Below are positions 35,096-48,016 of a stretch of 57,652 nucleotides of DNA, one piece after another. The notes beneath the pieces are model-generated. The model was not told where the DNA came from and did no database searches. It saw only the letters and a program-made list of their open reading frames with translations. Within the stretch, counting starts at the first letter, position 1. Each line of letters opens with the position of its first letter. Origin of the DNA: Sedimentisphaerales bacterium (GTDB lineage: Bacteria > Planctomycetota > Phycisphaerae > Sedimentisphaerales > Anaerobacaceae); NCBI GenBank assembly GCA_016927855.1, contig JAFGLV010000074.1, positions 1 to 57,652 on the forward strand. The letters run 5' to 3'. Both the position numbers and the translations under genes were made by a program.

Positions 35096-35123
35096 ATGAA
35101 ACATAACATATCTTGTGTGTCTT
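35096..35123. repeat. attL: dif-like XerC/XerD site
   Basis: 28-bp site with dif geometry: 11-bp arm ATGAAACATAA, 6-bp centre CATATC, 11-bp arm TTGTGTGTCTT. In reverse complement the first arm becomes TTATGTTTCAT, matching 9 of 11 bases of the E. coli XerD arm (TTATGTTAAAT). The arm toward the provirus is the poorer XerC-like one. Shares 15 identical bp (35100-35114) with attR. Confidence 0.75.
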
Positions 35124-35217
35124 GAATCGAGTGACATTCGCTCGCTTCCTTGTGGCGTGGTTCTCATTTCTCCCTGCCGCGTGTCCCTGACCAGTGCTGA
35201 CCGGCACGCGGCTGTTT

Positions 35218-35332
35218 CTCTCCCGAGCGCAAAGGGGCGTGCGCTGGGCTGGCTGCTTCGGTGCACCGGAAACGCTGGCCTTACAGATGAGCAGGAAATG
35301 GCCTGTTCTCGGTTCGATTCCGAGGGGAGAGA
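35218..35332 (+). tRNA. tRNA-like structure, anticodon arm not canonical
   Basis: Acceptor CTCTCCC (35218-35224) pairs perfectly with GGGAGAG (35325-35331), extendable by a T-A pair; discriminator A. D-arm stem AGCGC/GCGCT with loop AAAGGGGCGT (35226-35245). T-arm CTCGG-TTCGATT-CCGAG (35308-35324) has the canonical loop. A variable-arm-like hairpin GCAGG-AAATGG-CCTGT is at 35291-35306. The 63-nt region between D and T arms is too long and contains no good 5-bp/7-nt anticodon hairpin; the best candidate (35259-35277) has wobble pairs and a 9-nt loop. Position 8 is G instead of U. No CCA is encoded. It is viral, just inside attL. Identity cannot be assigned. Confidence 0.5.
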
Positions 35333-35440
35333 TTTCGCTCTACGTCGCGGACCAGGCAACGCAGGGGTGCGACCTGGAAGGACGGCGTGTGAGGTTAGTT
35401 GGCAGAGGGGGCCGGTAGCACGGATGCGACCGGCCCATCT

Positions 35441-35509
35441 GCGTTACGCCTGCCACCTGGTTGCAGACGTATCCGGCGCGAGCGATCCGGCCGGCTCGCG
35501 TTACGCCTG
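35441..35509 (+). repeat. GCGTTACGCCTG repeats in the viral leader
   Basis: Exact 12-mers at 35441-35452 and 35498-35509; a one-mismatch copy at 35709-35720 and an inverted one-mismatch copy at 35830-35841 lie inside the first gene. A 9-mer CGAGCGATC is also repeated (35479, 35521). Candidate operators or Rep-binding iterons ahead of the early genes. The remaining viral leader (35333-35557) shows no convincing gene. Confidence 0.45.
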
Positions 35510-35557
35510 TGCGATCGACACGAGCGATCGGGGAACCGGCCGGCCGGAGGCGTTACC

Positions 35558-35860
35558 GTGAGCTACTACTATGAGCCGCGCGTCTGTCACTGGTGCGGTG
35601 GTGAGATTCCAATGGGAATGCAGAGCAAACGCCGGGGTCTGCACGATTTCTGCTGCACCGCCCACCGCGTCGCCCACCATCGAGCCTATACCCGCTGGCT
35701 CGCCACCCGCGTTACGTCTGAGGCCCGCTGCAGCGACCAGGCCGCAGCTGCATCGAGGAGCAAGCGTAACAGCGACAAGCCCGCCGGCAGCGGCGCGACG
35801 TCCGCCGGAGATCCCTCCGGACCTGGTCGCAGGCGTAACACCAGAAAGGGGACGAAATGA
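35558..35860 (+). CDS. Viral small zinc-finger protein
   Basis: 100 aa from GTG 35558, with GGAGG at 35546-35550. The N-terminal half carries paired metal ligands: CHWCGGEI near residues 9-16 and HDFCCTAHR near 27-35, a C-x2-C/C-C-x-x-H arrangement. The rest is Ala/Arg/Ser-rich and disordered. Stop overlaps the next ATG (ATGA). First gene of the early operon; probably binds nucleic acid. Confidence 0.6.
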   Translation: MSYYYEPRVCHWCGGEIPMGMQSKRRGLHDFCCTAHRVAHHRAYTRWLATRVTSEARCSDQAAAASRSKRNSDKPAGSGATSAGDPSGPGRRRNTRKGTK

Positions 35861-36015
35861 AGTCTGAGCAGGAAATCCGGGCACGGCTACGCGAGTACGA
35901 GAAGGACCCGCGTCACAGCTATCCGCCGGCCAAGGTGCATATCAACGCGCCGCTCGCTCTCATGCAGGTGGGCATCGACGCCAGCATTGCAGCGCTCAAG
36001 TGGGTGCTCGAATGA
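35857..36015 (+). CDS. Viral 52-aa hypothetical protein
   Basis: MKSEQEIRARLREYEKD start, then a short segment ending in an amphipathic helix (GIDASIAALKWVLE). Start and stop both overlap neighbours by ATGA, which supports that it is translated. Function unknown; the helix-only character suits a small regulator. Confidence 0.55.
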   Translation: MKSEQEIRARLREYEKDPRHSYPPAKVHINAPLALMQVGIDASIAALKWVLE

Positions 36016-36251
36016 TCGTGCTCGTACTCGTCGGCGTGTGGTGTTTCGTGATGGGCGCCGTGGCGGTCCTGGCCGTGCAGGTGTGGCTCGAAGCCCGGCG
36101 CTCCGAGCAACGGCGGCGGCAGGGACTCCGGTTGCTCGTGTTCACCTCCGTCAAACCTCCTGCCAACAAACCCCAATCCTCTAAACCCTCCGGCGGCGTG
36201 CCGCCGGACCTGATCGACCCGGACACCGGCTGCTTGAGGGACTATCGATGA
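36012..36251 (+). CDS. Viral small membrane protein
   Basis: 79 aa. Residues 1-21 form a transmembrane helix (MIVLVLVGVWCFVMGAVAVL), followed by an Arg-rich stretch (ARRSEQRRRQG) and a Pro/Ser tail. N-out/C-in topology is expected from the positive flank. ATG 36012 overlaps the previous stop. Role unknown. Confidence 0.6.
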   Translation: MIVLVLVGVWCFVMGAVAVLAVQVWLEARRSEQRRRQGLRLLVFTSVKPPANKPQSSKPSGGVPPDLIDPDTGCLRDYR

Positions 36252-36424
36252 CGCGGTGTGAGTATGCGCAGTGCCGGCGGACGGGGTGCGTGTGGGTGTG
36301 GGACCGCCGGGAAAAGCGGCTCCGATTGTGTTGTGCTGAGCACGCCGAGCTGATCGTGATGGCGGACTGGCCGGAATATGACGTGAATTGTCCGAAATGT
36401 GGCTGTCTGTTTGGAGTGAACTGA
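36248..36424 (+). CDS. Viral small zinc-ribbon protein
   Basis: 58 aa with eight cysteines, including CEYAQC near the start, LCCAEH in the middle and CPKCGC near the end: a likely zinc ribbon. Overlaps the previous stop (ATGA) and lies 2 bp before ssb. Probably a nucleic-acid-binding or regulatory early protein. Confidence 0.6.
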   Translation: MTRCEYAQCRRTGCVWVWDRREKRLRLCCAEHAELIVMADWPEYDVNCPKCGCLFGVN

Positions 36425-36426
36425 CG

Positions 36427-36780
36427 ATGGCGCAGTGGAACCAAGTGACGATGATCGGCAATCTCACCGAGGACCCCAAGCTCAGCTACACGCCGACGCA
36501 GACGGCCGTCTGTGAATTCCGCCTGGCGGCGAATGAGAAGTACACCAACGTCAACGGCACGGTCAAGGACCGCGTCTGCTTCATCGGCGTGCGCTGCTTC
36601 GGCAAGACGGCCGAAGCCGCACACAAGTATCTCAAGAAAGGCGCTCCGGTGTTCGTGGCCGGCCGGCTCGATTACGAACAGTGGCAGAGCAAGGACGGAG
36701 GCAATCACAGCAAGCACGTCGTCACCGCCGACACCGTGCAGTTCCTCTTGGCACGGCAGAACGAGCAGAGCGAATCTTAG
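36427..36780 (+). CDS. ssb: Viral single-stranded DNA-binding protein
   Basis: 117-aa OB-fold SSB from ATG 36427 (MAQWNQVTMIGNLTEDPKL). Core strands CEFRLAANEKY, DRVCFIGVRCFGKTAE, LKKGAPVFVAGRL and HVVTADTVQFL match bacterial SSB. It ends QNEQSES and lacks the acidic Asp-Asp-x-x-Pro-Phe tail that host SSB uses to recruit partners, typical of viral or plasmid SSBs. Encoded 14 bp upstream of rep, so it likely coats single strands produced by rolling-circle replication. Confidence 0.92.
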   Translation: MAQWNQVTMIGNLTEDPKLSYTPTQTAVCEFRLAANEKYTNVNGTVKDRVCFIGVRCFGKTAEAAHKYLKKGAPVFVAGRLDYEQWQSKDGGNHSKHVVTADTVQFLLARQNEQSES

Positions 36781-36794
36781 GGAGTATAGGCAAA

Positions 36795-38060
36795 ATGGCT
36801 AAGCATGGATGCGTAGCAACAGCCGTCGAGGCTGGGAACCCCCCCTATGTACAACGGGGGTTGAATTCACACTCGCAGGAAAAAACCGCGTTTCGAGCCC
36901 AAAAACCGCTCTTCGATTGTGTCGGGATACACTGGCTCCGTGGGACCGCCCCTCAGGTCTGCTTCGATGTCATGCTCGAGTATCTCGATATGTTCTTCGG
37001 TGAGGACCGCGAGCATTTCGACTGGGGCGCGTTGCCCAAGTACGACCGGTCGATTCGCTGGCCGAATGCCGCGAGCCTGAACTACCATTCCACTCAGGAG
37101 CGGGCCGACCGGCTCACCGCCGGCGGCATGACGTTGGAGCTACCGGGCGGGGCGGTCGAATCGCTCGACATCGAGGTCTTTCATTCGTTCGCCAAGGGAC
37201 TGTCGGGCTTTGGTTTTGCGTGTGCCCGCATCGACGTGTTCTTTGACGACTTCGAGCGGCTCATCTCACCGCGTGAATTGTACCCGGCCGTCTATGAGGT
37301 CGATCTGCTGGGAGAGGAGCTCCGGCGGGAATTCACCGGCTTCTTGACCCTGGCTCCCGAGCAGAAGTATGGCGGGCGCCGGGCGCGTGCCCTGGGCGGT
37401 AAACGCGGCCTGACCAGTGACGTCTTGCGCTTCGGCAATCGCGGTAGTGCGGGATCGGGCAAGAGCTTGCGGGTGTACGATAAACGCCTGGAAACGCAGG
37501 GCGAACGCGACTGTGTACGCTGGGAATTGGAGTTGTGCCGACATCGCAGCTTGAAGGCGTATGCGGCCTTGCTCAATACGACGCTGGCTGACTGGCCCAA
37601 GGTCATCGGCATGATGATCGGTGGTTGTATCGACTTTCGCCACCGGCCCGTAAATGCTGACGGCCGGCTGCTCAAGCCTGGCGACAAAAACTGGTCTCGT
37701 TTGATCCGGTTCGACTGGTGGCAACGGATCATCGACAAGCTCGGTCGGCTGCCGATTCAGAACCCCGTCAGTACGAAGGCCGTGGAGCGGTCCGCTGAGT
37801 GGCTGGCGCATCAGGTCTCTGGCACGCTCCAAATGCTGACGTGTGCCTATGGCAGCGCCAAGGTGCTCGCGGACATCATGGACATCGTCGGGCGGCGGGA
37901 CCGGCTCAACGCTGCTCATATGGCGGCTCTGGCTGAATTCGAACAACGCTGTGCCGGACGGCCGATCCCGGACATCCATGAGGTGCGTCATTGGGCCGAT
38001 GGCGTCGGTATCGAGATCGAAACGGACCCCGAGGACCCGCCGGATGCCACCGACCTATAA
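36795..38060 (+). CDS. rep: Viral rolling-circle replication initiator (Rep_trans family)
   Basis: 421 aa from ATG 36795, with TAGGGAG upstream. The initiator hallmarks are present: hydrophobic N-terminal strand FDCVGIHWLRGT (about 40), ARIDVFFDD (about 148), LRVYDKRLET (about 226, candidate tyrosine/lysine motif) and VRWELELCR (about 242). Proteins of this family nick a double-strand origin and initiate rolling-circle replication of plasmids (pT181 type) and filamentous phages. The C-terminal 150 residues are helical and unassigned. A tandem repeat lies immediately downstream. Which tyrosine is catalytic is not certain from sequence. Confidence 0.85.
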   Translation: MAKHGCVATAVEAGNPPYVQRGLNSHSQEKTAFRAQKPLFDCVGIHWLRGTAPQVCFDVMLEYLDMFFGEDREHFDWGALPKYDRSIRWPNAASLNYHSTQERADRLTAGGMTLELPGGAVESLDIEVFHSFAKGLSGFGFACARIDVFFDDFERLISPRELYPAVYEVDLLGEELRREFTGFLTLAPEQKYGGRRARALGGKRGLTSDVLRFGNRGSAGSGKSLRVYDKRLETQGERDCVRWELELCRHRSLKAYAALLNTTLADWPKVIGMMIGGCIDFRHRPVNADGRLLKPGDKNWSRLIRFDWWQRIIDKLGRLPIQNPVSTKAVERSAEWLAHQVSGTLQMLTCAYGSAKVLADIMDIVGRRDRLNAAHMAALAEFEQRCAGRPIPDIHEVRHWADGVGIEIETDPEDPPDATDL

Positions 38061-38090
38061 AATCGTTTGGCAACACACTGGCTCACCCGA

Positions 38091-38117
38091 ACGGGGTAAC
38101 CCTCACGGGGTAACCCT
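38091..38117 (+). repeat. Tandem ACGGGGTAACCCT repeat after rep
   Basis: Two copies of the 13-mer (38091-38103, 38105-38117) with 14-bp period, each containing the near-palindrome GGGTAACCC and preceded by CCCGAACGGG. Lies 30 bp after the rep stop in a 150-bp gap. Candidate replication origin or iterons. Confidence 0.45.
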
Positions 38118-38212
38118 TTTGGGGGAAAGTGACGCTCAAGTCGCCCTGGCATCTCTCCGATATGAGAAGCGTCGGCTGGCACGTTGCCGGCGTTGGCTTC
38201 GGAGGATTCGTG

Positions 38213-38530
38213 ATGCAGTGTCCATCATGCAAGGGCAAGACCAGCAAGCGGCAGGGGGGCATCCACTGTGACACCTGCGGTGACCTGGTACAGTCAGATA
38301 GCGGTGAATGGGTGGTCTCGGATCGAGCGTTGGCGTGCGCGACTGCGCGATCTGGACCGGATCATGGCGAGCCTGACGAAGAGCCTGCTGCTGCCCCAAA
38401 GCCTGACGGAGAAACTGCACGTCGCGGCGGATCTGGCCGAACTGACCCAGCATCGCAAGTGCCTGACGGACAGGATCGGTCGGGAGTGGATGAGGATGAT
38501 GACCTTTTCGTGTGCGTGGAGTTGTCGTGA
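38213..38530 (+). CDS. Viral zinc-ribbon protein with acidic tail
   Basis: 105 aa from ATG 38213 with GGAGG at 38201-38205. N-terminal zinc ribbon CPSCKGKTSK ... CDTCGD (residues 3-24), then a low-complexity Pro/Asp/Gly tail ending DEDDDLFVCVELS. The zinc ribbon and ribosome site favour this frame. A second frame, 38268-38585, overlaps most of the tail and could also be coding. Confidence 0.6.
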   Translation: MQCPSCKGKTSKRQGGIHCDTCGDLVQSDSGEWVVSDRALACATARSGPDHGEPDEEPAAAPKPDGETARRGGSGRTDPASQVPDGQDRSGVDEDDDLFVCVELS

Positions 38531-38532
38531 CC

Positions 38533-39180
38533 ATGAACTACACTGCCCGCGACCTCTCCAGTCTCACCAAGAAGGAACTCAGTGACATCGGTCTGGAGCT
38601 CGGTCTGAGCTTCAGCAAGAATCACAACAAGCAACACTGCCGCCGGGCGATTCTGTCCGCTCAAGCGGCGGCTGCATCGACATCCCCACCGCCGGCACAC
38701 GCAGATAGTGTCTCAACGGAACCTCTCCCTGTAAATCCGCAGTTCGAATCCCTCCTGGGCGACGATGTCGATGAATCCGGCTCCGACTGTCCTCCTTCCG
38801 GTGCGGAGCGGTCTTCGGGGTGGGGGGGCGCACGCGACGGGGCCGGCCGACCGGCCGGCGTCACGAATGCCCACGCGGCGGTAGCACGTCTATCGGAGCA
38901 ACCCCACCCTTTTGTGCGCTCGTCGCTCGCAGGGCTGTTTCGCCTCTGGTCGGTCCGTGTCAAGGTCGATGTCTCGCTCAGTGAGCAGGAAGCCTTTGAC
39001 CTGGCCTTGTGCTATACGCAGGTGGGCGACTATCTCGGCGTCACCGACAAGATTCCGGTCTGGCTCCAGCTCGCCATTACGACCGTCTGGACCACGGCCA
39101 ACGTCGTCAGCGGCAAAGCGCGTCTCATTCGCTTGGAACAGGCGAAACGCCGGGCGGCGACGGAGGCACAAGCCGCATGA
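38533..39180 (+). CDS. Viral protein with HeH/SAP-like N-terminus and GGARxGAGRP motif
   Basis: 215 aa from ATG 38533. Residues 5-45 (LSSLTKKELSDIGLELGLSF) resemble a HeH/SAP DNA-binding helix pair. A Pro/Ser linker follows, then GWGGARDGAGRP (about 98-109), a motif often found at the start of phage small-terminase-like proteins. The C-terminal 90 residues are helical (EQEAFDLALCYTQVGDYLGV). It immediately precedes and overlaps the packaging ATPase gene (ATGA), so a role in DNA recognition for packaging is inferred. Confidence 0.6.
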   Translation: MNYTARDLSSLTKKELSDIGLELGLSFSKNHNKQHCRRAILSAQAAAASTSPPPAHADSVSTEPLPVNPQFESLLGDDVDESGSDCPPSGAERSSGWGGARDGAGRPAGVTNAHAAVARLSEQPHPFVRSSLAGLFRLWSVRVKVDVSLSEQEAFDLALCYTQVGDYLGVTDKIPVWLQLAITTVWTTANVVSGKARLIRLEQAKRRAATEAQAA

Positions 39181-39851
39181 CGGAGCCCGTCGTCCAGTGC
39201 ATCGTCGGCATGACAGGCTGCGGCAAAACAACCAAGGCCGAATGCCTGATGCTGGATCATTCGCGGGTCCTCTATCGCGACGCCATCGGCCACGACTACG
39301 CCGACGGTCTGGTATTCTCCGACCGGCCGGCCCTCGAAACCTACTGGCGCCGTGTCTATCGCGGCCCGTTTCGCATGGTGCATCGGCCGCTGGACCCGTT
39401 GGAGGACTTCGGCCGCGAATGCCACTTGGTCCGCGAGTGCGGCTCGCTGGGCTACGTGGTCGATGAAGCGCACCTGTACTGCAAGGCCGGCAAGATCATC
39501 GACCGCGAGTTTACCCGCCTGATCGGAACCGGCCGGCACTACGACATCGACCTGGTCTGCGTCTCGCAAGCGCCCAAGCACCTCGCGGAATTTTTGCGGT
39601 CGCAGGCCCACGAGTGGTTTGTCTTCATGCTCAAGGAGCCTGGTCACGTGGAGTATGTGGTGCAACGCTGTGGCGGTCTGGTCACGCGTGAGCACGTGCT
39701 GGCCCTGGAGCGCTTCGAGTATCTGCACTACACCGATTACGGCCCGGACGGGACGCCGGCCGTCTGGCTCTGTCGGGATGACATCGTTTCGGGGACCACT
39801 GACCGTGTCCAGCTCGCCTCCGGCCTTGGTCAACACGACGCATCTGAGTAG
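39177..39851 (+). CDS. Viral packaging ATPase (FtsK/HerA fold, PM2 P9-like)
   Basis: 224 aa. Walker A GMTGCGKTT (residues 10-18), Walker B LGYVVDEAH (about 95-103) and the downstream polar Gln of LVCVSQAP (about 130) form a minimal P-loop core, the size and layout of the genome-packaging ATPases of PRD1/PM2-type membrane viruses. It also distantly resembles Zot-like filamentous-phage assembly ATPases, but lacks their transmembrane segment. Overlaps the preceding gene by 4 bp. Lies upstream of the capsid gene. Confidence 0.82.
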   Translation: MTEPVVQCIVGMTGCGKTTKAECLMLDHSRVLYRDAIGHDYADGLVFSDRPALETYWRRVYRGPFRMVHRPLDPLEDFGRECHLVRECGSLGYVVDEAHLYCKAGKIIDREFTRLIGTGRHYDIDLVCVSQAPKHLAEFLRSQAHEWFVFMLKEPGHVEYVVQRCGGLVTREHVLALERFEYLHYTDYGPDGTPAVWLCRDDIVSGTTDRVQLASGLGQHDASE

Positions 39852-40002
39852 ACGCTGGGGCGTCTGCACGCGGACGGTCCTGCGCGTCGCGCGGCTGCAC
39901 GGCCTGACGCTCATCCGCCTGACCCGTCGCGGTCGCTTTCTGCTGTTGACCGAAGAAATCGCCCACCTTGAGGCTCAGACCGGCATTGTGCGCTCACGCT
40001 GA
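39805..40002 (+). CDS. Viral small MerR/excisionase-like HTH protein
   Basis: 65 aa from GTG 39805, overlapping the ATPase 3' end by 47 bp in another frame. The sequence HLSRRWGVCTRTVLRVARLH then RRGRFLLLTEEIAHLEAQ follows the excisionase/MerR-type helix-turn-helix-wing pattern (L-S-x-x-W-G-V-x-x-R-T-V ... R-x-G-R-x-x-L-x-x-E-E-I). It ends just before the proposed late promoter, so it is the best candidate for the late-gene regulator. Confidence 0.55.
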   Translation: MSSSPPALVNTTHLSRRWGVCTRTVLRVARLHGLTLIRLTRRGRFLLLTEEIAHLEAQTGIVRSR

Positions 40003-40003
40003 C

Positions 40004-40102
40004 TTTCGCGAGTTTCGCGACAACGCGGACACGGCGCACCTGCCCTCTAAGTCGCTCCCTGCCTCTATGCGATAATGTGGATGAATAGTGGTCGAATCGA
40101 CC
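40004..40102 (+). promoter_or_regulatory. Putative viral late promoter with operators
   Basis: Two direct TTTCGCGA copies (40004-40011, 40013-40020), then an extended -10 TG-C-GATAAT (40068-40076) without a clear -35, then the palindrome GGTCG-AAT-CGACC (40090-40102) at about +10. The -10 without -35 suggests activator dependence. The palindrome recurs at 45209. Confidence 0.5.
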
Positions 40103-40133
40103 GAAACCATCCATCGCATTTGGAGTGAGAGTG

Positions 40134-40277
40134 ATGAAGCTGACGACCTACATCCCCAAGCCGCGTTTCATGGTCGGCGTCGCGATCAGTCTGGCAGTGA
40201 TTGTGTTCCTGCTTCAGGCCGGGTCCGGCAACGCCACCGTGCAGAAAATCAAAGCCTACCTGGGACTCACCGCCTAA
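40134..40277 (+). CDS. Viral 47-aa membrane protein
   Basis: MKLTTYIPKPRF then one transmembrane helix (MVGVAISLAVIVFLLQ, about 13-28) and a short basic tail. GGAG ribosome site at 40122. First gene of the late operon, 51 bp before the capsid gene. Likely a virion membrane protein like the small integral proteins of PM2. Confidence 0.6.
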   Translation: MKLTTYIPKPRFMVGVAISLAVIVFLLQAGSGNATVQKIKAYLGLTA

Positions 40278-40328
40278 GCGCATCGCGGCGTGACAGGCGT
40301 TCGTCTCTCTCTTTCAGGAGTCTCAGAC

Positions 40329-41204
40329 ATGGCAACGCGACTGAAAAGCACCTTCCTGAGCCCCATACAATCTACGGCGGTTGCTCCCGCCAGTGGGGCC
40401 ACGATCAACCATCAAGTCGACACCACGCGCAACCTGCACGCGATCACGCTGCACTTTGACGATGGCGGTGTGGACGCGACCGAAGCCCAGATCAAGGCGG
40501 ACATCGGTCTGATCAAGGTCCAGTACAACGGCGTGGACATCGTCCGGGCGACCGCGACCGAGCTGTGCGACATCCTCAGCTACTACGAGGATGCCGTCTC
40601 GACCGGTTTCATCGCCGGCACGCTGCGCATCCCCTTGACCCGGCGTGACCTGCCCACCGCGGCGCTGAATCAGCTCTTCGCCATCGGCATGGTCGATGCG
40701 CAGGGCCGGCCGCAGAACCTCACCGCGCAGATTGCTTGCGCCGGGACCGTCACCAACATCGATGGCTGCAACGTGGGCTATGAGTACGACCTGGCTGACC
40801 CGCGTCCGCTGGGTCTGCACATGCGTCTGTTGCAGCATACCCGCACGTTCGCCTCGACGGGCCAGAAGGCCGTCACCGATCTGCCGATCAAGGGCCGCAA
40901 CGCCATCCTGGCCTATCACATCCACGATACGACCGGCACGATCACGCAGATCGAGCTCAAGCAGGGCGAGTTCGACCTGATCGCGAATCAGGCGGTCAAC
41001 TTCTTGAAGGACCGCGATCACCGCGCGGGCTGGATCTGGCAGACGAACTACACGCATGTCAATCTCGCCACGCAGGGCGACCTCAACGATGGTATGCCGG
41101 CCGGCGACAGGGCGTCCGGTGTCATCCTGACGCCGAACTGGCCTTCGACCGGACCCGGCGGCAACTACACGATCATCGAAGAGTGCATGGTGAACGGGCT
41201 TTAG
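40329..41204 (+). CDS. Major capsid protein, double jelly-roll, PM2 P2-like
   Basis: 291 aa from ATG 40329 with CAGGAG upstream. All-beta protein in two halves, about 1-165 and 170-291, as expected of a double jelly-roll. The N-terminal half follows the P2 layout: SGATINHQVDTTRNLHAITL, a Gly-Val turn with EAQIKADIGLIKVQYNGVDI, FIAGTLRIPLTRRDLPT and NQLFAIGM. The second half starts at TDLPIKGRNAILAYHI and ends in a strand (YTIIEECM). Slightly longer than PM2 P2. Trimers would build a pseudo-hexagonal capsid over a membrane. Family call rests on pattern matching; structure prediction would settle it. Confidence 0.75.
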   Translation: MATRLKSTFLSPIQSTAVAPASGATINHQVDTTRNLHAITLHFDDGGVDATEAQIKADIGLIKVQYNGVDIVRATATELCDILSYYEDAVSTGFIAGTLRIPLTRRDLPTAALNQLFAIGMVDAQGRPQNLTAQIACAGTVTNIDGCNVGYEYDLADPRPLGLHMRLLQHTRTFASTGQKAVTDLPIKGRNAILAYHIHDTTGTITQIELKQGEFDLIANQAVNFLKDRDHRAGWIWQTNYTHVNLATQGDLNDGMPAGDRASGVILTPNWPSTGPGGNYTIIEECMVNGL

Positions 41205-41258
41205 TCCCGTTTGCCGCCAACGGACGTGTAGTGTCGGGTTTTCTGCAGGAAAGCGGCT

Positions 41259-41504
41259 ATGAGCTTCTGGGATGACATCAACGAGGTGCTGGGCAAGGTC
41301 GGCGACGTGTCCGAGCAGGTCCAGGATCAGATAAACGGCTGGTCGGAGACGTTCGGCGGCGGGTCCACGAACGACCAGGCCGAACCGAACCCCGGCACGT
41401 CGCCACCGGTCGCGGCCTCGCCTGCCGGCCACGGCGGTCAGAACCTGACTCCGTTGCTGCTGGTGGGCGGCGTGCTGTTCGTCTTGTTCGTGTTGGCGAG
41501 GTGA
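41259..41504 (+). CDS. Viral small membrane protein
   Basis: 81 aa. Acidic amphipathic N-terminal helix (MSFWDDINEVLGKVGDVSEQ), Pro/Gly linker, and a C-terminal transmembrane helix (LLLVGGVLFVLFVLAR). 55 bp after the capsid gene and 4 bp before the next. Probable virion membrane protein linking membrane to capsid. Confidence 0.6.
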   Translation: MSFWDDINEVLGKVGDVSEQVQDQINGWSETFGGGSTNDQAEPNPGTSPPVAASPAGHGGQNLTPLLLVGGVLFVLFVLAR

Positions 41505-41508
41505 CGGC

Positions 41509-41697
41509 ATGTTTCTCGATCTCGCGTCCAGCGCAGTCAAAGGCTTGACGGGCGCCAACAAAAGCTCGTCGTCGTCGGCGACGTCGTCGGCATCGGTAGG
41601 GCAGTTCACCTCCGGCCTGTTCGGCGGCGGTGACACGAACTGGCTGCTGATCGTATTCGTCGGACTCGTCGTCTACGCGGCTATGCGTAAGGGCTGA
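41509..41697 (+). CDS. Viral small membrane protein
   Basis: 62 aa. Short N-terminal helix, a Ser-rich stretch ([11 protein letters not shown]), a Gly-rich turn and a C-terminal transmembrane helix (WLLIVFVGLVVYAAM). Same architecture as the gene before it. Likely virion membrane protein. Confidence 0.6.
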   Translation: MFLDLASSAVKGLTGANKSSSSSATSSASVGQFTSGLFGGGDTNWLLIVFVGLVVYAAMRKG

Positions 41698-41698
41698 G

Positions 41699-42115
41699 AT
41701 GGCACAAGGACAGTATCAATACCGATCCTCTGCGAGCACCACGCTCGAAAACGTCGCGGATAACCGCGTGCTGATCGAAGCGGGTGCTGAGCTGCCCGAC
41801 GTCTTCGTCTCGCCGCAAGCCCGTCTGGCGTCGCCTGGCTCGCTGCAACTGAACCTGGAGGGCATGGGTCAATCGGTGGAGCTGGTCGGCCTCAGCGGTC
41901 CCGAGGCGATCGCGCTGCTGGACCACGCGTACGCCGATTCCAACGCGGACGCGGCCGAACTGGCGAGCCTGGCGGCGAAGGCCCTCGACAGCATCGGGGC
42001 GACGGCGTCGGCCGCTCAAGCGGCTCTGACGGCGCGTGAGACCCCGGACTATCAGCAATGGTTGCCCTACATCATCGCCGGCGGCGTGCTGCTGGCGTTC
42101 CTGGTGAAACGATGA
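41699..42115 (+). CDS. Viral membrane-anchored virion protein
   Basis: 138 aa. Residues 1-70 are beta-rich (ENVADNRVLIEAGAELPDVF), residues 75-115 an Ala-rich helix (ADAAELASLAAKALDSIG), and residues 121-137 a C-terminal transmembrane helix (WLPYIIAGGVLLAFLV). Begins 1 bp after the previous stop, overlaps the next start (ATGA). Confidence 0.6.
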   Translation: MAQGQYQYRSSASTTLENVADNRVLIEAGAELPDVFVSPQARLASPGSLQLNLEGMGQSVELVGLSGPEAIALLDHAYADSNADAAELASLAAKALDSIGATASAAQAALTARETPDYQQWLPYIIAGGVLLAFLVKR

Positions 42116-42687
42116 ACAACCTACCGAACCTCGTCCGCACGCCGAAGACGCTGAGCTTTACGCTCGCGGCCGGTGCGATTCTGCCCTGGCCGGTCCAGGG
42201 TCACGTCGTGCGTCTGCTCTCGCTGACCGGTGTCAGCTCGCTCCAGGTCGCCTTCGACGACAGCGGCGAAGAGACGTTCTACGCGGGCATCTCGTATCCC
42301 TGCCGCGCGGGCCTGCAATTCGAGCGGCTCACGTTTCGCAATGCCGGGTCCGCGTTGGTCGCGGTGATTGCGGTCGTCTCGGATGAACCCATCGACGCGC
42401 CGGCCAACGTAGGCGGGGCCTCGAACGTCATTGACGAAACGACCGTGGCGAACGGGGCCGCGACGCTGCTGTTCGCGGCGAACCCGACCCGGGCGCAACT
42501 GGTGATTGCCGGCGTGAGCACCAACACGAACGTCGTGCTGCTGGGCGATTCCGCCCTGGCGGCGGATCACTACATGTGGCGTGTCACGAACAGCGGTTTC
42601 TGGAACCCGGTTCCCGCGCCGAAACATGCAATCTACGGCTGGGGCCTGGCGGCCTCGCAGAAGGTCTTTGGCTATGAGCTGTCGTAA
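42112..42687 (+). CDS. Viral beta-rich protein, penton or spike-base candidate
   Basis: 191 aa, almost entirely beta strands (VVRLLSLTGVSSLQVAFDD, LVIAGVSTNTNVVLLGD), no signal peptide or membrane helix. Overlaps the beta-helix spike gene by 14 bp. In PM2-like virions a jelly-roll penton base carries the spike; size and position suit such a role, but there is no direct motif. Confidence 0.55.
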   Translation: MNNLPNLVRTPKTLSFTLAAGAILPWPVQGHVVRLLSLTGVSSLQVAFDDSGEETFYAGISYPCRAGLQFERLTFRNAGSALVAVIAVVSDEPIDAPANVGGASNVIDETTVANGAATLLFAANPTRAQLVIAGVSTNTNVVLLGDSALAADHYMWRVTNSGFWNPVPAPKHAIYGWGLAASQKVFGYELS

Positions 42688-44812
42688 ATCTCTGATTCTG
42701 GTCTCGCTGCTCGCCGGCCTGGCCTACGGGCAGGGCTACATGGGTGACACCGACGTCAACGGCGTCCAGCCGTCCACGTGGGGAGCCACCTGGGTGCAGG
42801 AGCCGAACGACGCCAACGCGGTGGCGAACCTGCAATTCACGTCGTGGGGCTGGAAGTGGGGCCGGCAGACCACCGACGCCAACGCGCTGACGGACATCGG
42901 CTTTTCGTCGTGGTTTCAAGGCCGCATTGCGGATGCGAACGAAGCGGCGTTCGCCCTCGATGTCAATGCGCCTACGTACAACGTCCGCCACTACGGGGCT
43001 ACCGGCGACGGTGCGACCGACGACGCGGCCGCAATTCAACTCGCTAACGATACGGCGGCGGCGGTGGGCGGTGTGCTCGTGTTTCCGCCGGGGACGTACT
43101 CCATACAATCGGCTGTTAGCGTCGATGCGTCTGTGGACTGGCGGGGCTACGGGGCGACTCTCCTGCTGGATGGCGGCGATATCACCGTAGCCGGCACTGC
43201 GACTGCTGCGGAGGCCCTGACGGCCGAAGTGGACAGGGGAGATCCGAACGTGAGCGTCGCGAACGAGAGCGCGTTCAGTGGGGGCGATATTGTCTTCCTC
43301 TCTGGTCACGCCAGCGCCAGCTATACGACCGACAACGAAGCGTTTTGGGGTGAGTACCATATCGTCCGGGGTACAGATACCAACGAAGTGCAGCTTGAAT
43401 CGGTCGCGGCGAACCGCCTCGAAACGGCCACACACTATCCCGCGATCAAGATCGTAACACCTATCCGCGTGCGCTTCTACGACTTGACCATCCGGGGCAA
43501 CGATGTCCCGAATTCCCTCGTCTGGTACTACACGCGCGACAGTGGGCTGTACGGCTGCGAGATTACCGGCGACGAGGGCGGCGGAGACCGCATTGTCGAG
43601 GTCCGCGATTCGTGGAACTTCGCGGTGCAGGACTGTACAATGTACGATGTCGGCGTAAATACGGCGTCGTATCCGGTCATGGCCTATCGTTGTGACGGCA
43701 TGACGTTTGCACGCAATCGCGTTAGGAACTCTGAACAGAGTATGACTGCGCAATGGTCGAAGAACGTCGTGTTCGTGAACAATACGCTCACGTATGTTCA
43801 CGCGGCCGGACTGCTGGCACAGAACTGTTTCGGCGTGTCCATCACGGGCAATGTCGTCAGTAACATGCCGCGCACGATGGCGGATTACGAGGCCGCAGCG
43901 ACCAGCGTCAATGGTATCCAGATCGTCGGGGCGGAAAACGTCGCGATTGTGGGCAACAGCCTCTATAGTTGTCACGGCGAAGGGGCCATCTACGTGCGAT
44001 CCTCCAACTACGTGTACGCCGATGGTACGTACAATCCGCCGTGTCGTAACATCGCGATCACGGGCAATGTTGTCATTGATGCCAACGAGACGTCGCAGGG
44101 TGCGGCGAATCATACGGGCTGTATCTACCTCAAGGCGGCTGGCAGCGACATCGTGGTTGCCAACAACACGCTCGAATTTCACAGTCGCACAGCCGCGAGC
44201 GCCGCGATCATGTGGGCGGGTGAATACGAGCGCATGACCGTGTGTGACAACATCATTCGCACCGACCAGGGCGGCATCTACGCCAAGGATTACACGGGTC
44301 CTCTCTATCCTCGCGGTGGCATGATTCGGGGCAACTCGATCCACTTTCTCACCGATATCGTGGCCAGTGCTGCGGGAGCAATTCGCTGTGCCACGGTGTC
44401 ACGCGGCTACGATTGGTACATCCAGGATAATCACGTTACCGGAGTCCCTCAGACGGGCAATCAATGGCACGTGGTAGCCTCGTACGTGACGACGACGTGG
44501 GAAACGGAGCGGCTGTGGATCAGCGGTAACACCGTGGAATTTGAGAGCGACGCGGCCGGGCGGGGCGTGTATACGGTGGCGACGGCCGGTACGCCAGACC
44601 CCCAGCAGGTGCGCGTTTGGGGCAATGATTTCAGCGACCTGGCGGGCGACGACTACAGCCCCAATATTGAAGCGTACGTGCATCCGTCTGGCACGCTAAT
44701 TCTGGATGATGGGACCACGGAAAAACTGACCATGACGTTCGTCGGCGGCAACCTGACTACGCGGACCGTGGAAGCGACCACGGGCAGTGCGTTGACGGAC
44801 TGGACTGATTAG
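42674..44812 (+). CDS. Viral spike: signal peptide plus pectate-lyase-like beta-helix
   Basis: 712 aa from ATG 42674 (MSCRKSLILVSLLAGLAYGQ), which looks like a secretion signal, unusual for a virion protein. Residues 25-85 hold three Trp-rich repeats with a DANA motif (STWGATWV..., TSWGWKWG..., SSWFQGRI...). From about 95 the start of a pectate-lyase-3/right-handed beta-helix is clear (NVRHYGATGDGATDDAAAIQ), then many coils with regularly spaced Asn (ITGNVVSNM, VAIVGNSLYSC, IVVANNTLEF). Likely the receptor-binding or glycan-depolymerising spike. Catalytic residues cannot be assigned. Confidence 0.75.
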   Translation: MSCRKSLILVSLLAGLAYGQGYMGDTDVNGVQPSTWGATWVQEPNDANAVANLQFTSWGWKWGRQTTDANALTDIGFSSWFQGRIADANEAAFALDVNAPTYNVRHYGATGDGATDDAAAIQLANDTAAAVGGVLVFPPGTYSIQSAVSVDASVDWRGYGATLLLDGGDITVAGTATAAEALTAEVDRGDPNVSVANESAFSGGDIVFLSGHASASYTTDNEAFWGEYHIVRGTDTNEVQLESVAANRLETATHYPAIKIVTPIRVRFYDLTIRGNDVPNSLVWYYTRDSGLYGCEITGDEGGGDRIVEVRDSWNFAVQDCTMYDVGVNTASYPVMAYRCDGMTFARNRVRNSEQSMTAQWSKNVVFVNNTLTYVHAAGLLAQNCFGVSITGNVVSNMPRTMADYEAAATSVNGIQIVGAENVAIVGNSLYSCHGEGAIYVRSSNYVYADGTYNPPCRNIAITGNVVIDANETSQGAANHTGCIYLKAAGSDIVVANNTLEFHSRTAASAAIMWAGEYERMTVCDNIIRTDQGGIYAKDYTGPLYPRGGMIRGNSIHFLTDIVASAAGAIRCATVSRGYDWYIQDNHVTGVPQTGNQWHVVASYVTTTWETERLWISGNTVEFESDAAGRGVYTVATAGTPDPQQVRVWGNDFSDLAGDDYSPNIEAYVHPSGTLILDDGTTEKLTMTFVGGNLTTRTVEATTGSALTDWTD

Positions 44813-44821
44813 GAGCATGTC

Positions 44822-44974
44822 ATGCGCAAGCGCAAAAGCACCCGCAAAACGTACCAAAAGAAATCGACGGCGCAGAAGGCGGTGGCACGCGGCCAGAGCG
44901 TCTACAAGGTCAAGGGCGGCTATCGCCTGACCAAGCGGCGCGCGACGCGGCGCCGGCGGCGGAGCTGGCCGTAG
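44822..44974 (+). CDS. Viral Arg/Lys-rich mini-protein 1
   Basis: 50 aa, about 40 percent Arg or Lys. Contains SVYKVKGGYRLTKRRATRR, shared in outline with the next gene (VY-x3-GGYR followed by basic runs). Probably condenses genome DNA or binds it during packaging. 9 bp after the spike gene. Confidence 0.6.
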   Translation: MRKRKSTRKTYQKKSTAQKAVARGQSVYKVKGGYRLTKRRATRRRRRSWP

Positions 44975-44975
44975 G

Positions 44976-45197
44976 ATGCGACGTCCGACGTATGCGACCA
45001 AGGCCCGGGCGATCCGCGCGGCACGCACCGGCCGGCGTGTCTACCGCGCGGCCGGCGGCTATCGCGTCTCGCCGGAGTGCCCACGGGCAGCGGCCCGGCG
45101 GCGGTCTCTCATTCGTCACCGCACCGCCTCACGCCGACCGGTTCGCCGGCGGGGTCTGTACGTCGCGGTCAAGTGGCTCGACACCGTGCCGTTTTAG
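44976..45197 (+). CDS. Viral Arg-rich mini-protein 2
   Basis: 73 aa. RVYRAAGGYRVSPECPRAAA matches the VY-x3-GGYR core of the preceding protein, so the two are likely tandem duplicates. The C-terminus adds GLYVAVKWLDTVPF. Starts 1 bp after the previous stop. Probable DNA-binding virion protein. Confidence 0.6.
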   Translation: MRRPTYATKARAIRAARTGRRVYRAAGGYRVSPECPRAAARRRSLIRHRTASRRPVRRRGLYVAVKWLDTVPF

Positions 45198-45208
45198 GGG
45201 GTGCTACG

Positions 45209-45247
45209 GGTCGGACCGACCGGAGATCGTGGCTCACCGCGAGCCAC
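45209..45247 (+). promoter_or_regulatory. Second GGTCG-N3-CGACC palindrome and hairpin
   Basis: GGTCG-GAC-CGACC (45209-45221) repeats the arms of the palindrome at 40090. It is followed by a perfect 7-bp hairpin GTGGCTC-ACCGC-GAGCCAC (45229-45247). Together they lie in the 141-bp gap before the distal late genes. Confidence 0.5.
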
Positions 45248-45338
45248 AGGACGCCGGATCGGCCCGGCAGAATCCGTTTCCATCGTTTTGCGACCACCGG
45301 GGACGTATCCGGCCCTGGGGCGCGTGGAGGATCTAGTG

Positions 45339-45551
45339 ATGAGTCAACTCAGTGAAGCCCTCAAGGGTGTGAAGCTGACCGTTATCCTGAACATCCTGGA
45401 GCTGATCGTGGCGAACCTGTCCGAGCCCGTCCGCAACGGCCTGGTCGATGCGATCACCAAGCTGGAGCAAACGGCCGCGACGACACCGAGCAAGGCCGAC
45501 GACATCCTGGCGGTCCTGCTGCACCCGATCAAGGAATGGCTCGCCGACTGA
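45339..45551 (+). CDS. Viral 70-aa helical protein
   Basis: MSQLSEALKGVKLTVILNIL: amphipathic, helix-rich, without a clear membrane span. ATG 45339 has a perfect GGAGG at 45326-45330. Stop overlaps the next start (TGATG). Function unknown; a scaffold or small virion protein is possible. Confidence 0.6.
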   Translation: MSQLSEALKGVKLTVILNILELIVANLSEPVRNGLVDAITKLEQTAATTPSKADDILAVLLHPIKEWLAD

Positions 45552-46195
45552 TGCCGGAAATTCTGTCCAGTCTGCCCTGGCTCAAAGGTCCGATCCCAGA
45601 TTCGGTCGTGCTGAATCCCGGCGACGAAATTTGGCTGCGCTATCAAATGATCGATTCCGGTTCGTGGCTCGAACAGACGATGGTGGCGCAGATCGAGACC
45701 GAGCTGAGAGCGGACCTGCGCGTCGAGTTGGTCCGCACGATCCGCGAAAGTGGCTACGACCTGAGCCCGCATTACCCGGTCGTCTCCGATCCCTCCGACG
45801 TCGGCGCGTCACCAGTCACCGAGCCGCAATACATCACCTTCGTCTGTCGTGCTCTGCCCGCGTCCGACTCCGACCAGCCCGCTGATCCGCGTGCCGGTGG
45901 AGTGATGCCCTGGCCTCTCAAGGCGGTCCTGATCGCGTCGGCCATCGCGCTGGCCGGGTACGCTACCTGGGTGTACTCCAATCGTATCGAGTACGTCATG
46001 AAGCCCGCCGTCGCCACGCTCCAGGAGACGGCCCAAGACCCCAACGCCACGCCGGCCGAACGCGAAACGGCCATCAAGGCCCTGGGCGAAATCGCCGATA
46101 CTTCGATCGTGGGTGAGGTCGCGTCCGGCCTGGGATCGAGCTTCGCGTTGCTCGTCGGCCTGGCGGTCCTGTACCTGCTCTTCGGAAGGGATTGA
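45551..46195 (+). CDS. Viral two-helix membrane protein
   Basis: 214 aa. Beta-rich N-terminal domain (about 1-110), then two transmembrane helices (about 120-142 KAVLIASAIALAGYATWVYS, and about 193-210 SFALLVGLAVLYLLFG) separated by an exposed loop (EYVMKPAVATLQETAQD). Candidate for a vertex or membrane-associated virion protein. Confidence 0.6.
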   Translation: MPEILSSLPWLKGPIPDSVVLNPGDEIWLRYQMIDSGSWLEQTMVAQIETELRADLRVELVRTIRESGYDLSPHYPVVSDPSDVGASPVTEPQYITFVCRALPASDSDQPADPRAGGVMPWPLKAVLIASAIALAGYATWVYSNRIEYVMKPAVATLQETAQDPNATPAERETAIKALGEIADTSIVGEVASGLGSSFALLVGLAVLYLLFGRD

Positions 46196-46197
46196 CG

Positions 46198-46503
46198 ATG
46201 ACACTGAGGGAACTGCTATTAGGCAAGATCGTGAACCAGCCCGGTTTGCGTGAAGGCGTGGCTTTCGGTTTGTCGATGGCGCCGCCGGCCCTGGCCGCGA
46301 AGCTTGATGCACCGTTGCACCTAAGGATCTATGAGACGTTCTACCGAGCCGACGTCAGTGGTATCGAGGTGCTACTGACCCTGGGGGACGATCAATGGGG
46401 ATGGAGTGCCGATGAACTGGAAGCTTTCATCAACGGACCTGCCCAAGATGCTCTTGGGTGTCCTGGGCGTGGTCCTGGCCTGGACGGCCCAGCAGACCAT
46501 TGA
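46198..46503 (+). CDS. Viral hypothetical protein
   Basis: 101 aa from ATG 46198, 2 bp after the previous stop. Starts MTLRELLLGKIVNQPGLREG; mixed alpha/beta; no recognised domain. The last 91 nt overlap the next gene in another frame, so its 3' end may be shared coding. Confidence 0.5.
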   Translation: MTLRELLLGKIVNQPGLREGVAFGLSMAPPALAAKLDAPLHLRIYETFYRADVSGIEVLLTLGDDQWGWSADELEAFINGPAQDALGCPGRGPGLDGPADH

Positions 46504-46738
46504 CCGCCTGGACTCCATCGAGTGCCGCCTGCGGACCCTGGAATGCCAGACTACCCGCATTCTGACCCGCCTGGACATGCCCACCAGCCGGGGCGATACC
46601 CTGGATTTCGGGGTAAAACCGGCTTGTTGGGACCTCTGGCCGGGGAATCAAAGAAATCAAGAAAATCAAACTACACCTTTTTCCCTTGACGAACCGATGG
46701 TACACTTGGTAGGGTATAAGTGCCGTAGTAACCGATAG
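46412..46738 (+). CDS. Viral small membrane protein with coiled coil (holin-like candidate)
   Basis: 108 aa. N-terminal hydrophobic helix (MLLGVLGVVLAWTA, about 13-26), then a heptad-like helix (QQTIDRLDSIECRLRTLE). GGAG at 46403. TM-plus-coiled-coil is common in holins and spanin-like proteins; no lysis enzyme was recognised in the provirus. Assignment tentative. Confidence 0.5.
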   Translation: MNWKLSSTDLPKMLLGVLGVVLAWTAQQTIDRLDSIECRLRTLECQTTRILTRLDMPTSRGDTLDFGVKPACWDLWPGNQRNQENQTTPFSLDEPMVHLVGYKCRSNR

Positions 46739-46764
46739 ACAGACAACTCGACCGAGCTTACTAC

Positions 46765-46804
46765 GGCGGGTGGATTGCCTCCAAGGCGTCCATCCGCCTT
46801 TTTC
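46765..46804 (+). terminator. Rho-independent terminator in the late operon
   Basis: GGCGGGTGGA (46765-46774) pairs with TCCATCCGCC (46789-46798) with one wobble, followed by TTTTTC. Ends most late transcripts before the last viral gene. Confidence 0.65.
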
Positions 46805-46825
46805 TTTGGCCTGGGAGTGCGTGGC

Positions 46826-47092
46826 GTGTTGGAGCTGCTGAATCTGCTGCTGGAATCGGATAAGCAAGACCAGCTCAAGGTCTTGGCGGCCGCCGTGTCC
46901 AGGAACGCGGCGCAGATCGAAGCGATGGATCGCGCTGTTCGCACCCTATACACCGCCTCGCTGGTGTCCTTAGGGGGCGTGTTGCTGTTGCTGGTCACCG
47001 TGCTGTATCTCGATCACTGCACGGGACGCCGGCTCAAAGCGTTGGAGGAACGGGTGAAGTCGCGGGAACGCGAGATTATACCGGTCTCATAA
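46826..47092 (+). CDS. Viral small membrane protein
   Basis: 88 aa from GTG 46826 (GGGAG at 46813-46817). Helical N-terminus (LLESDKQDQLKVLAAAVSRN), one transmembrane helix (about 48-66, LVSLGGVLLLLVTVLYL) and a charged coiled-coil tail. Lies after the terminator, close to attR, so it may be expressed separately. Confidence 0.5.
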   Translation: MLELLNLLLESDKQDQLKVLAAAVSRNAAQIEAMDRAVRTLYTASLVSLGGVLLLLVTVLYLDHCTGRRLKALEERVKSREREIIPVS

Positions 47093-47134
47093 AAAAGGCC
47101 CTGTGCCGGAGAATCTCAAGGTGCAACCGACTGA

Positions 47135-47162
47135 GTGTAACATAACATATCTTATGGGACGT
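47135..47162. repeat. attR: dif-like XerC/XerD site
   Basis: Arm GTGTAACATAA, centre CATATC, arm TTATGGGACGT. Shares the 15-bp core 47139-47153 with attL. Excision would rejoin the attL left arm with this right arm, giving a host dif whose reverse complement reads ACGTCCCATAA, GATATG, TTATGTTTCAT, close to known bacterial dif sites. Confidence 0.75.
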
Positions 47163-47269: not shown

Positions 47270-48016
47270 TCAGTAGTCTGCGGTGCGCTCAAATGGGTCA
47301 CGCATCGCGAGGGGCTTGCCGAGGATTTCGTAGTGGAGGATCGCTCGGCGCAAAGCATCGGGATCGTCGTAGTCGATCACTAAGGAGACCGGTGCGCCGG
47401 CATTCGGCTGGGCGGCGGGAGTCTCGATAGTCGCGACAGCCGAGGGCTCGTGTGGGTACAGGGTTGGGGCCGCGGCCTCCGCTTCACGTTGGCGCCGCGC
47501 GGCCAACCGCCGGCTCGCTTCGGCGCGCCGGGCGGCCGCCACCGCCTCGCGGGCTTGCTGCTGTCCGGCCGCCTGCTGTTGGGCGATCGACTCCGGACGG
47601 TCCCTCTCGAAGACCAGAACCGATTCGCCGCTGGAGTCGGTGCGGATCATCAGTTTACCGGGCTCCGGCCGTCTGGGGCCGGCGGGGGACGGCGCCTGCG
47701 GCGAGGACTGGGCCTGCTGGTATTTGGCTTCGAGCGCGCGCTGCATTTCTTCGGCCTTGCGTGCCAGACGTTGTTGCCAAGTCTCTCGCGGCTGTCCCGC
47801 AAGCGAGCGTTGGGGAGCAGCTTCTCTGCCGACGCGCTGCTGTCTTTTCTTGGCCTCGGCGTTCTTGATCAGCCCGCCGATCATCGAGAAAACTACAATG
47901 ATCAGGAGGATGAGGATATTGGCCCAGTCGCCAAAATCGTCCCACTGGGCCAGCAAACCAAGTTGGACAATCCATTCCTGCATGCGTTGCCACCCGGACC
48001 TTCGGTCTCGGGTCAT
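47270..48016 (-). CDS. Unknown FloA-linked membrane protein
   Basis: 248 aa. One membrane helix near residues 32-48 ([19 protein letters not shown]), then a long Gln/Arg/Ala-rich helical region (about 50-200) and a conserved-looking C-terminal segment ([20 protein letters not shown]). Start overlaps the floA stop by 4 bp, so it is translationally coupled to the flotillin and probably acts with it. First chromosomal gene right of the provirus. Family unknown. Confidence 0.75.

Follow-up and report, generated by a model that had tools for sequence, protein, structure and literature searches.

The tailless viruses related to the Pseudoalteromonas phage PM2 (Corticoviridae; for background, see Krupovic and Bamford 2007, PMC1950889) have been described mostly as prophages of Proteobacteria (Yutin 2018, PMC5894146), and gut prophages of the Vinavirales have been reported in Alphaproteobacteria and, in 2022, in Verrucomicrobia (PMC9502842). 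In the available text of Yutin 2018 the string "planctomycet" has no occurrence, and among the titles and abstract openings listed in searches of open-licence papers, none reports a corticovirus, a double-jelly-roll virus or a Vinavirales virus in planctomycetes. Dif-like sites are described for Vibrio phage NO16 (PMC9966536), Rhodobacter phage Jorvik (PMC10589892) and a set of Vibrio prophages (PMC11630473); in the available parts of these papers the involvement of XerCD is either proposed or left open. Here we analyzed a stretch of 57,652 nucleotides from a Sedimentisphaerales bacterium (contig JAFGLV010000074.1; hereafter, the window), in which positions 35097-47156 very probably hold a PM2-related prophage, inserted in the predicted dif of a planctomycete-related bacterium, carrying no recognised integrase and likely entering and leaving the chromosome via the XerC and XerD recombinases of its host.

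The likeness to PM2 lies in the fold and Pfam domains of the capsid, in a P9-type ATPase, in the gene order and in the genome length (10,079 bp in PM2 and 12,039 bp between the two attachment sites of the window, a size fitting the 9-12 kb of Vinavirales genomes, which are circular or carry inverted repeats). The gene at 40329-41204, which, like all the genes of the element, lies on the forward strand, encodes a 291-amino-acid (aa) major capsid protein of the P2-like double-jelly-roll type, with Pfam P2_N and P2_C scores of 32.2 and 33.7 bits (cut-off 25 each). A preliminary description of this DNA, made from the letters and their open reading frames (ORFs), had proposed such a capsid and had named fold prediction as its check: the AlphaFold2 model (predicted local distance difference test, pLDDT, 86.6) has PM2 P2 as its top fold match, with 13% identity in the structural alignment. 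The short FtsK/HerA-type packaging ATPase anticipated there is also present close upstream of the capsid gene (39177-39851). Its best Pfam match is AAA_22 (E 0.012, below cut-off) and its NCBIfam HerA match is weak (E 1.2e-5, far below the model's cut-off); it is 37% identical to its counterpart in the related genome G029 and 39% to that in G027 (BLASTP, E 3e-45 and 1e-43), and these two match PM2 P9 (BLASTP, E 5e-6 and 1e-5, respectively). All four proteins align through Walker A, an alignment in which the window's ATPase is 22% identical to P9. In each of the six elements considered in this work, i.e., that of the window and those of G027, G029, G573, G607 and G654, a homologue of this ATPase is encoded at most about 2.5 kb from a P2-type capsid gene. 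PHROGs labels the window's ATPase "terminase large subunit" (phrog_2666, E 9.8e-14), which by the terms of the preliminary description would speak against a PM2-like virus; because of the proximity to the capsid gene, and of the alignment with P9, we read it as a P-loop label.

The surrounding genes follow the PM2 order, with positions corresponding to orf h, P9, P7, P2, small proteins and spike and with BLASTP homologues in two relatives; the run common to the window, G027, G029 and PM2 comprises a zinc ribbon, an orf h-like protein, the ATPase, the capsid, small proteins and a two-domain protein of 200 aa. For further Vinavirales core genes, such as lysin, P3, P8, P10 and spike P1, the picture is mixed: the positions fit, no lysin scores above a Pfam cut-off, and the spike is a beta-helix protein. 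All 23 gene models of the window were scanned with Pfam and PHROGs, and no portal, HK97-type capsid or tail-tube family is found among their matches. The earlier statement that the block lacks any tailed-phage gene stands for the Caudoviricetes hallmarks HK97 capsid, portal and tail tube and fails for the automatic labels, that is, "terminase" on the ATPase and "tail spike" (E 2.5e-20) on the 712-aa spike.

The element also differs from PM2: besides the low capsid identity, the element has a Rep_trans protein instead of PM2 P12, a beta-helix spike and a capsid on a separate branch, and it is integrated. In the Vinavirales capsid tree, 19 capsids of the window's group lie on one side of a branch supported 100/100, apart from the ten known phages. 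Judged from this tree, the group appears to be a branch separate from Corticoviridae, Autolykiviridae, NO16 and Jorvik/YY; the ten reference phages do not include Verrucomicrobia or gut prophages, and Jorvik and YY are long branches of unsure placement. One further capsid, P0016, lies outside the 19, though one earlier grouping put it inside at 97/94. The window's capsid does not fall within the PM2 clade, so that the previous designation "Corticovirus (PM2)-like" is right in its second part and too narrow in its first. The "Mestraviridae" and other Verrucomicrobia and gut Vinavirales prophages resemble the element in having, in some cases, hosts of the PVC superphylum and PM2-type core genes, a likeness drawn from their published description (PMC9502842). 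By analogy with PM2, and from the small membrane proteins, an inner membrane and a tailless icosahedral virion are predicted.

Both replication genes named in the preliminary description score above their cut-offs, namely a single-stranded DNA-binding protein (SSB; 36427-36780, Pfam SSB 104.9 bits, NCBIfam ssb above cut-off) and a 421-aa Rep_trans-family initiator (36795-38060, PF02486, 52.3 bits, cut-off 29.6). The rolling-circle mode is a property of the Rep_trans family, and the initiator is predicted to act in this way. Such a pair might also be expected in a FLiP-type (Finnlakeviridae-like) virus with a single-stranded circular genome, rather than in a PM2-type virus with double-stranded DNA. 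Four weak matches of the Rep protein among phage records are in fact small viruses annotated with replication proteins, and the PhiCjT23-like relatives of FLiP share the double jelly roll and use dif, being described as dif-flanked prophages in Flavobacterium (PMC9719478). The genomes of that group are single-stranded, and the window's capsid matches the FLiP capsid fold much more weakly than that of PM2; we consider a FLiP-type virus quite unlikely.

The block is bounded by two dif-type sites, both read on the reverse strand. The left one, on the side of a gene for a tetratricopeptide-repeat (TPR) protein (35096-35123, 28 bp), consists of a phage XerC arm AAGACACACAA, the centre GATATG and a chromosomal XerD arm TTATGTTTCAT, with 4/11 XerC-arm and 0/11 XerD-arm mismatches to host-type dif; the right one, on the side of a gene labelled HYP (47135-47162, 28 bp), consists of a chromosomal XerC arm ACGTCCCATAA, the same centre and a phage XerD arm TTATGTTACAC, with 0/11 and 2/11 mismatches, respectively. 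Judged from these counts, the right site is the more intact dif after insertion. A 21-nt motif derived from the right site bounds the block at 35097-35117 and 47136-47156 and had no match in 100 shuffles; among 60 genomes, 39 contain it (the window's included), 35 of these in single copy, and a reversed-pattern control occurs in 1/60. The ends given previously (35100-47153) are thus accurate to within a few bases.

Joining the window's flanks gives AATGAAACATAACATATCTTATGGGACGTT, which is present in the relative G030. In the 28 dif loci of relatives, out of 44 places listed, the stretch shared with the joined flanks is 28 to 32 nt long in six (31 nt in G032, 30 nt in G030); in the remaining 22 it measures 15 to 24 nt, for the most part owing to a differing central hexamer. 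The host genes flanking the element code for the TPR-repeat protein (33419-35026, forward strand, TPR profiles), for HYP (47270-48016, reverse strand) and for a flotillin-like FloA (48013-49032, reverse strand, NCBIfam FloA 479.5 bits, cut-off 393). The TPR gene adjoins dif in 27/28 of the loci and FloA lies on the opposite side, within the stretch covered, in 15/28, and the empty dif site is seen directly in 15 relatives' loci. The integration claimed previously is supported by the two sites and by their empty counterpart, and the dif-like ends, the empty dif of relatives and the lack of a recognised tyrosine recombinase of its own are features of dif-integrating elements (integrative mobile elements exploiting Xer, IMEX). 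The order TPR gene-dif-FloA recurs across this planctomycete family; in the 13 of 28 loci where FloA is not seen opposite, other elements may sit.

The use of dif has parallels in several systems. NO16 ("Asemoviridae") is, like the element of the window, tailless and temperate, with dif-like sites and a proposed role of XerCD (PMC9966536), but it has a Vibrio host and its capsid lies on a separate branch. Jorvik also lacks a predicted integrase and has attP and attB resembling dif, with XerCD proposed; its site, however, is reported to vary by host, lying in the RuBisCO operon in R. capsulatus (PMC10589892), whereas the window's group occupies one conserved locus, and its capsid is very distant. 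VGJphi, CTXphi and TLCphi of V. cholerae are described as borrowing XerC and XerD at dif (PMC4246890), but these are filamentous or satellite phages with unrelated virion genes. The tailless Vibrio prophages at dif are instead reported to carry integrases regularly (PMC11630473), which raises the question of whether dif is here the target of a phage-encoded recombinase of an unrecognised type. We judge this very unlikely: no Phage_integrase match occurs in any of the six elements, no recombinase appears among the Pfam and PHROGs matches of the window's gene models, and the host has both a XerC (356.7 bits, cut-off 335.15, NCBIfam) and a XerD-like protein, the typing of host recombinases covering the window's genome. 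The same host genome also carries, on G000:C79, an integron-type integrase (TIGR02249, 485 bits, cut-off 265).

Three relatives harbor prophages at the same place: the elements of G029, G607 and G573 span 11,037, 12,208 and 10,491 bp between their dif sites and have the same TPR, HYP and FloA flanks and the same orientation. Counting the window, all four integrated elements thus share the TPR/FloA dif locus and the orientation, their sites being 10.5-12.2 kb apart. In addition, the contigs G027:C52 and G654:C485 are terminated by exact direct repeats (84 and 99 bp, respectively) and have one attP-like site each; because of these repeats, we take them as likely circles, of 10,683 and 12,197 bp.

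The capsid profile matches 6/89 genomes of the host family (window's counted), in 5/45 genera, and 5/397 genomes in a draw from the class, all within the host family. In a draw of 392 genomes from the phylum (21 of 392 listed), a six-row capsid profile matched the window only, a result that speaks mainly to other families, as the host family was represented among the genomes listed by the window's own. A viral contig collection yielded no relative by capsid or by ATPase-pair scans, and the phage records gave no capsid match and one very weak ATPase match, besides the Rep matches mentioned above. A protein search yielded 16 capsid sequences including the window's. One is named by NCBI "major capsid protein P2 [Phycisphaerae bacterium]", so that an automatic P2 label already exists for one Phycisphaerae relative, and two relatives come from genomes with the names Planctomycetes bacterium RBG_13_46_10 and Phycisphaerales bacterium CSMAG_1251. 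These names, together with the placement of G027 and G029 in the window's own family, uphold the planctomycete host suggested at the outset. Such a host would add to the known range, which, considering the Alphaproteobacteria and Verrucomicrobia reported in PMC9502842, was already wider than had been stated.

The absence of activity data and of recognised lysis genes might suggest a decayed or domesticated remnant of an old inherited insertion, no longer a virus. However, the scanned genes are open, and two of the relatives are likely circular. Moreover, the capsids of G029, G607 and G573 are 26, 28 and 21% identical to the window's, those of G607 and G573, which belong to one genus, being 57% identical to each other; this divergence, together with the few family genomes carrying a relative, makes vertical inheritance unlikely. 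A remnant is, in our opinion, highly improbable.

The other modules vary among the six elements. Rep_trans is present in the window only (1/6 element genomes, the other five having no Rep_trans match); G027 and G029 share a different gene of 165-173 aa at the replication position (50% identity), with weaker matches in G573 and G607. The spikes differ too: that of the window is a beta-helix, whereas G654 has a pectate-lyase match below cut-off, G027 an Lcl_C domain and G029 no Pfam match. Outside the window, mismatches to host-type dif number 5 to 9 of 11 in the phage-side XerC arms and 0 in the XerD arms, compared with 4 and 2 of 11 in the window. In G029 the central hexamers are unequal (TGAGTG and TATATG), the TATATG form being common among relatives; if TATATG is chromosomal, the crossover would lie at the XerC-arm boundary. 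As to which recombinase performs the first exchange, the unequal hexamers of G029 favor XerC, and the poor XerC arm argues against it.

On this basis, we suggest the following cycle for the PM2-related prophage. A circular genome of about 12 kb would be replicated from the Rep_trans initiator with its own SSB, and its single dif-like attP would recombine with the host dif via the host XerC and XerD. Since the XerC arm of attP is poor and its XerD arm good, insertion would leave an intact or near-intact dif on the HYP side and a hybrid site on the TPR side; chromosome dimers could then still be resolved at a usable dif, a putative benefit of its restoration. On induction, the circle would be packaged by the P9-like ATPase into a double-jelly-roll capsid lined with a membrane and bearing a beta-helix receptor spike.

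Several points weigh against this interpretation. The element is known here from its sequence, and the assembly that contains the window is a draft of 180 contigs with 87% completeness. The host XerD-like protein scores 329.2 bits, i.e., 0.4 below the NCBIfam cut-off of 329.6, a phage recombinase may be hidden among the unassigned ORFs, and the attP XerC arm, with 4 to 9 of 11 mismatches across the six elements, is weak for a XerC substrate. The GC-skew sampling of the closed relative G011 was too noisy to give a clear terminus signal, and so the term dif is based on the sequence of the site, its copy number and the synteny around it. Concerning the virion genes, BLASTP gives significant matches to PM2 P9 for the ATPases of the relatives and none for that of the window itself; the PM2 P7 and P3/P4/P8 counterparts among the small genes are assigned by position alone; and no lysin above the Pfam cut-off is found among the gene models, with one weak PHROGs endolysin match (E 0.026).

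Planctomycetes seem to be a new host phylum for PM2-type tailless viruses; to our knowledge, few viruses of planctomycetes are known. Phage-ZRK32 of a cultured planctomycete was set aside as a candidate for the same virus, being described as extrachromosomal and 21.9 kb long, with no double-jelly-roll capsid named in the available text (PMC10945688). With four prophages at the same site and two likely circular genomes, the planctomycete lineage offers an attB, an attP and a host range that are defined and open to testing, and the six genomes allow capsid, spike and replication modules to be compared within one host family. We consider it reasonably probable that they represent a lineage of tailless, membrane-containing viruses, new at the family level and restricted to one Phycisphaerae-type family, whose lysogeny is tied to dif beside TPR/FloA, whose attP, with its degenerate XerC arm and good XerD arm, rebuilds dif at each insertion, and which swaps replication and spike modules with site, orientation and capsid core unchanged. 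After Proteobacteria and Bacteroidetes, the planctomycete lineage would be a third bacterial group with dif capture by double-jelly-roll phages, suggesting that small circular phages lacking integrases capture dif in general.

The remaining genes of the element are mostly small. Ahead of the SSB gene lie those for a 100-aa zinc-finger-like protein with a GTG start (35558-35860; 33% identical to a 70-aa ORF of G027, E 6e-7; zf-FCS E 0.03, below cut-off), a 52-aa ORF (35857-36015; phrog_22742, of unknown function, E 1.7e-5), an 83-aa membrane protein (36000-36251; hydrophobic stretch 2.86), which bears the weak endolysin match, and a 58-aa cysteine-rich ORF without Pfam or PHROGs family (36248-36424). 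Between Rep_trans and the ATPase, a zinc-ribbon-like protein occupies the PM2 P13/P14 position (38213-38530; weak BLASTP match to G029, E 0.018; Zn_ribbon_6 E 0.0039, below cut-off) and a conserved protein the orf h position (38533-39180; 28% identity to G029, E 4e-12, and to G027, E 5e-8). A 50-aa membrane protein at the P7 position (40125-40277; 2.37) separates P9 from P2, and the capsid gene is followed by those for membrane proteins of 81 aa at the P3/P4/P8 position (41259-41504; 2.33) and of 62 aa (41509-41697; 1.68; weak G573 match, E 0.005) and for a conserved 138-aa protein (41699-42115; matches in G573, E 0.001, and G654, E 2e-6). The "about eight" membrane proteins expected from the preliminary description come close to the count obtained, since 7/22 measured gene models have a 19-residue stretch with a mean Kyte-Doolittle value of at least 1.6.

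The two-domain beta protein ahead of the spike (42112-42687; AlphaFold2 pLDDT 78.9, predicted template modelling score 0.62) has BLAST links to G027, G029, G607 and, via G029, G573, and is tied to G654 by position and alignment only. Its model gives weak and mixed fold matches, including a Vibrio phage 1.249.B protein (E 2e-10) and the PM2 chain 2w0c_L (E 1.5e-3), a lead according to which it might be a penton or spike base. The 712-aa right-handed beta-helix spike, with a predicted role in receptor binding, follows (42674-44812; Pfam Beta_helix 40.8 bits and pectate-lyase-like 40.0 bits, both above cut-off). Downstream, two adjacent strongly basic proteins of 50 aa (44822-44974, net charge +21; 62% identity over 34 aa to G029, with matches in G573 and G607) and 73 aa (44976-45197, net +20) may, with about +20 each, condense DNA inside the particle. 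The right end comprises a 70-aa protein with a hydrophobic stretch by hydropathy (45339-45551), a 219-aa protein with C-terminal hydrophobic segments (45536-46195; 2.11; weak G654 match, E 0.002), a conserved 110-aa protein (46406-46738; 32% identity to G027 over 47 aa, E 9e-5) overlapping a putative 103-aa ORF (46192-46503), and a 105-aa membrane protein (46775-47092; 2.35).

Lastly, the 3.2-Mb genome of G029 contains 33 tyrosine-recombinase matches, many of them on short contigs and in open frames roughly 200-260 aa long. The three contigs examined (C4, C21 and C28) each carry a dif-like site and, nearby, a conserved ORF of 93-100 aa followed by a 202-aa recombinase, so that this set resembles a family of small mobile elements, linked to dif, that has become amplified.

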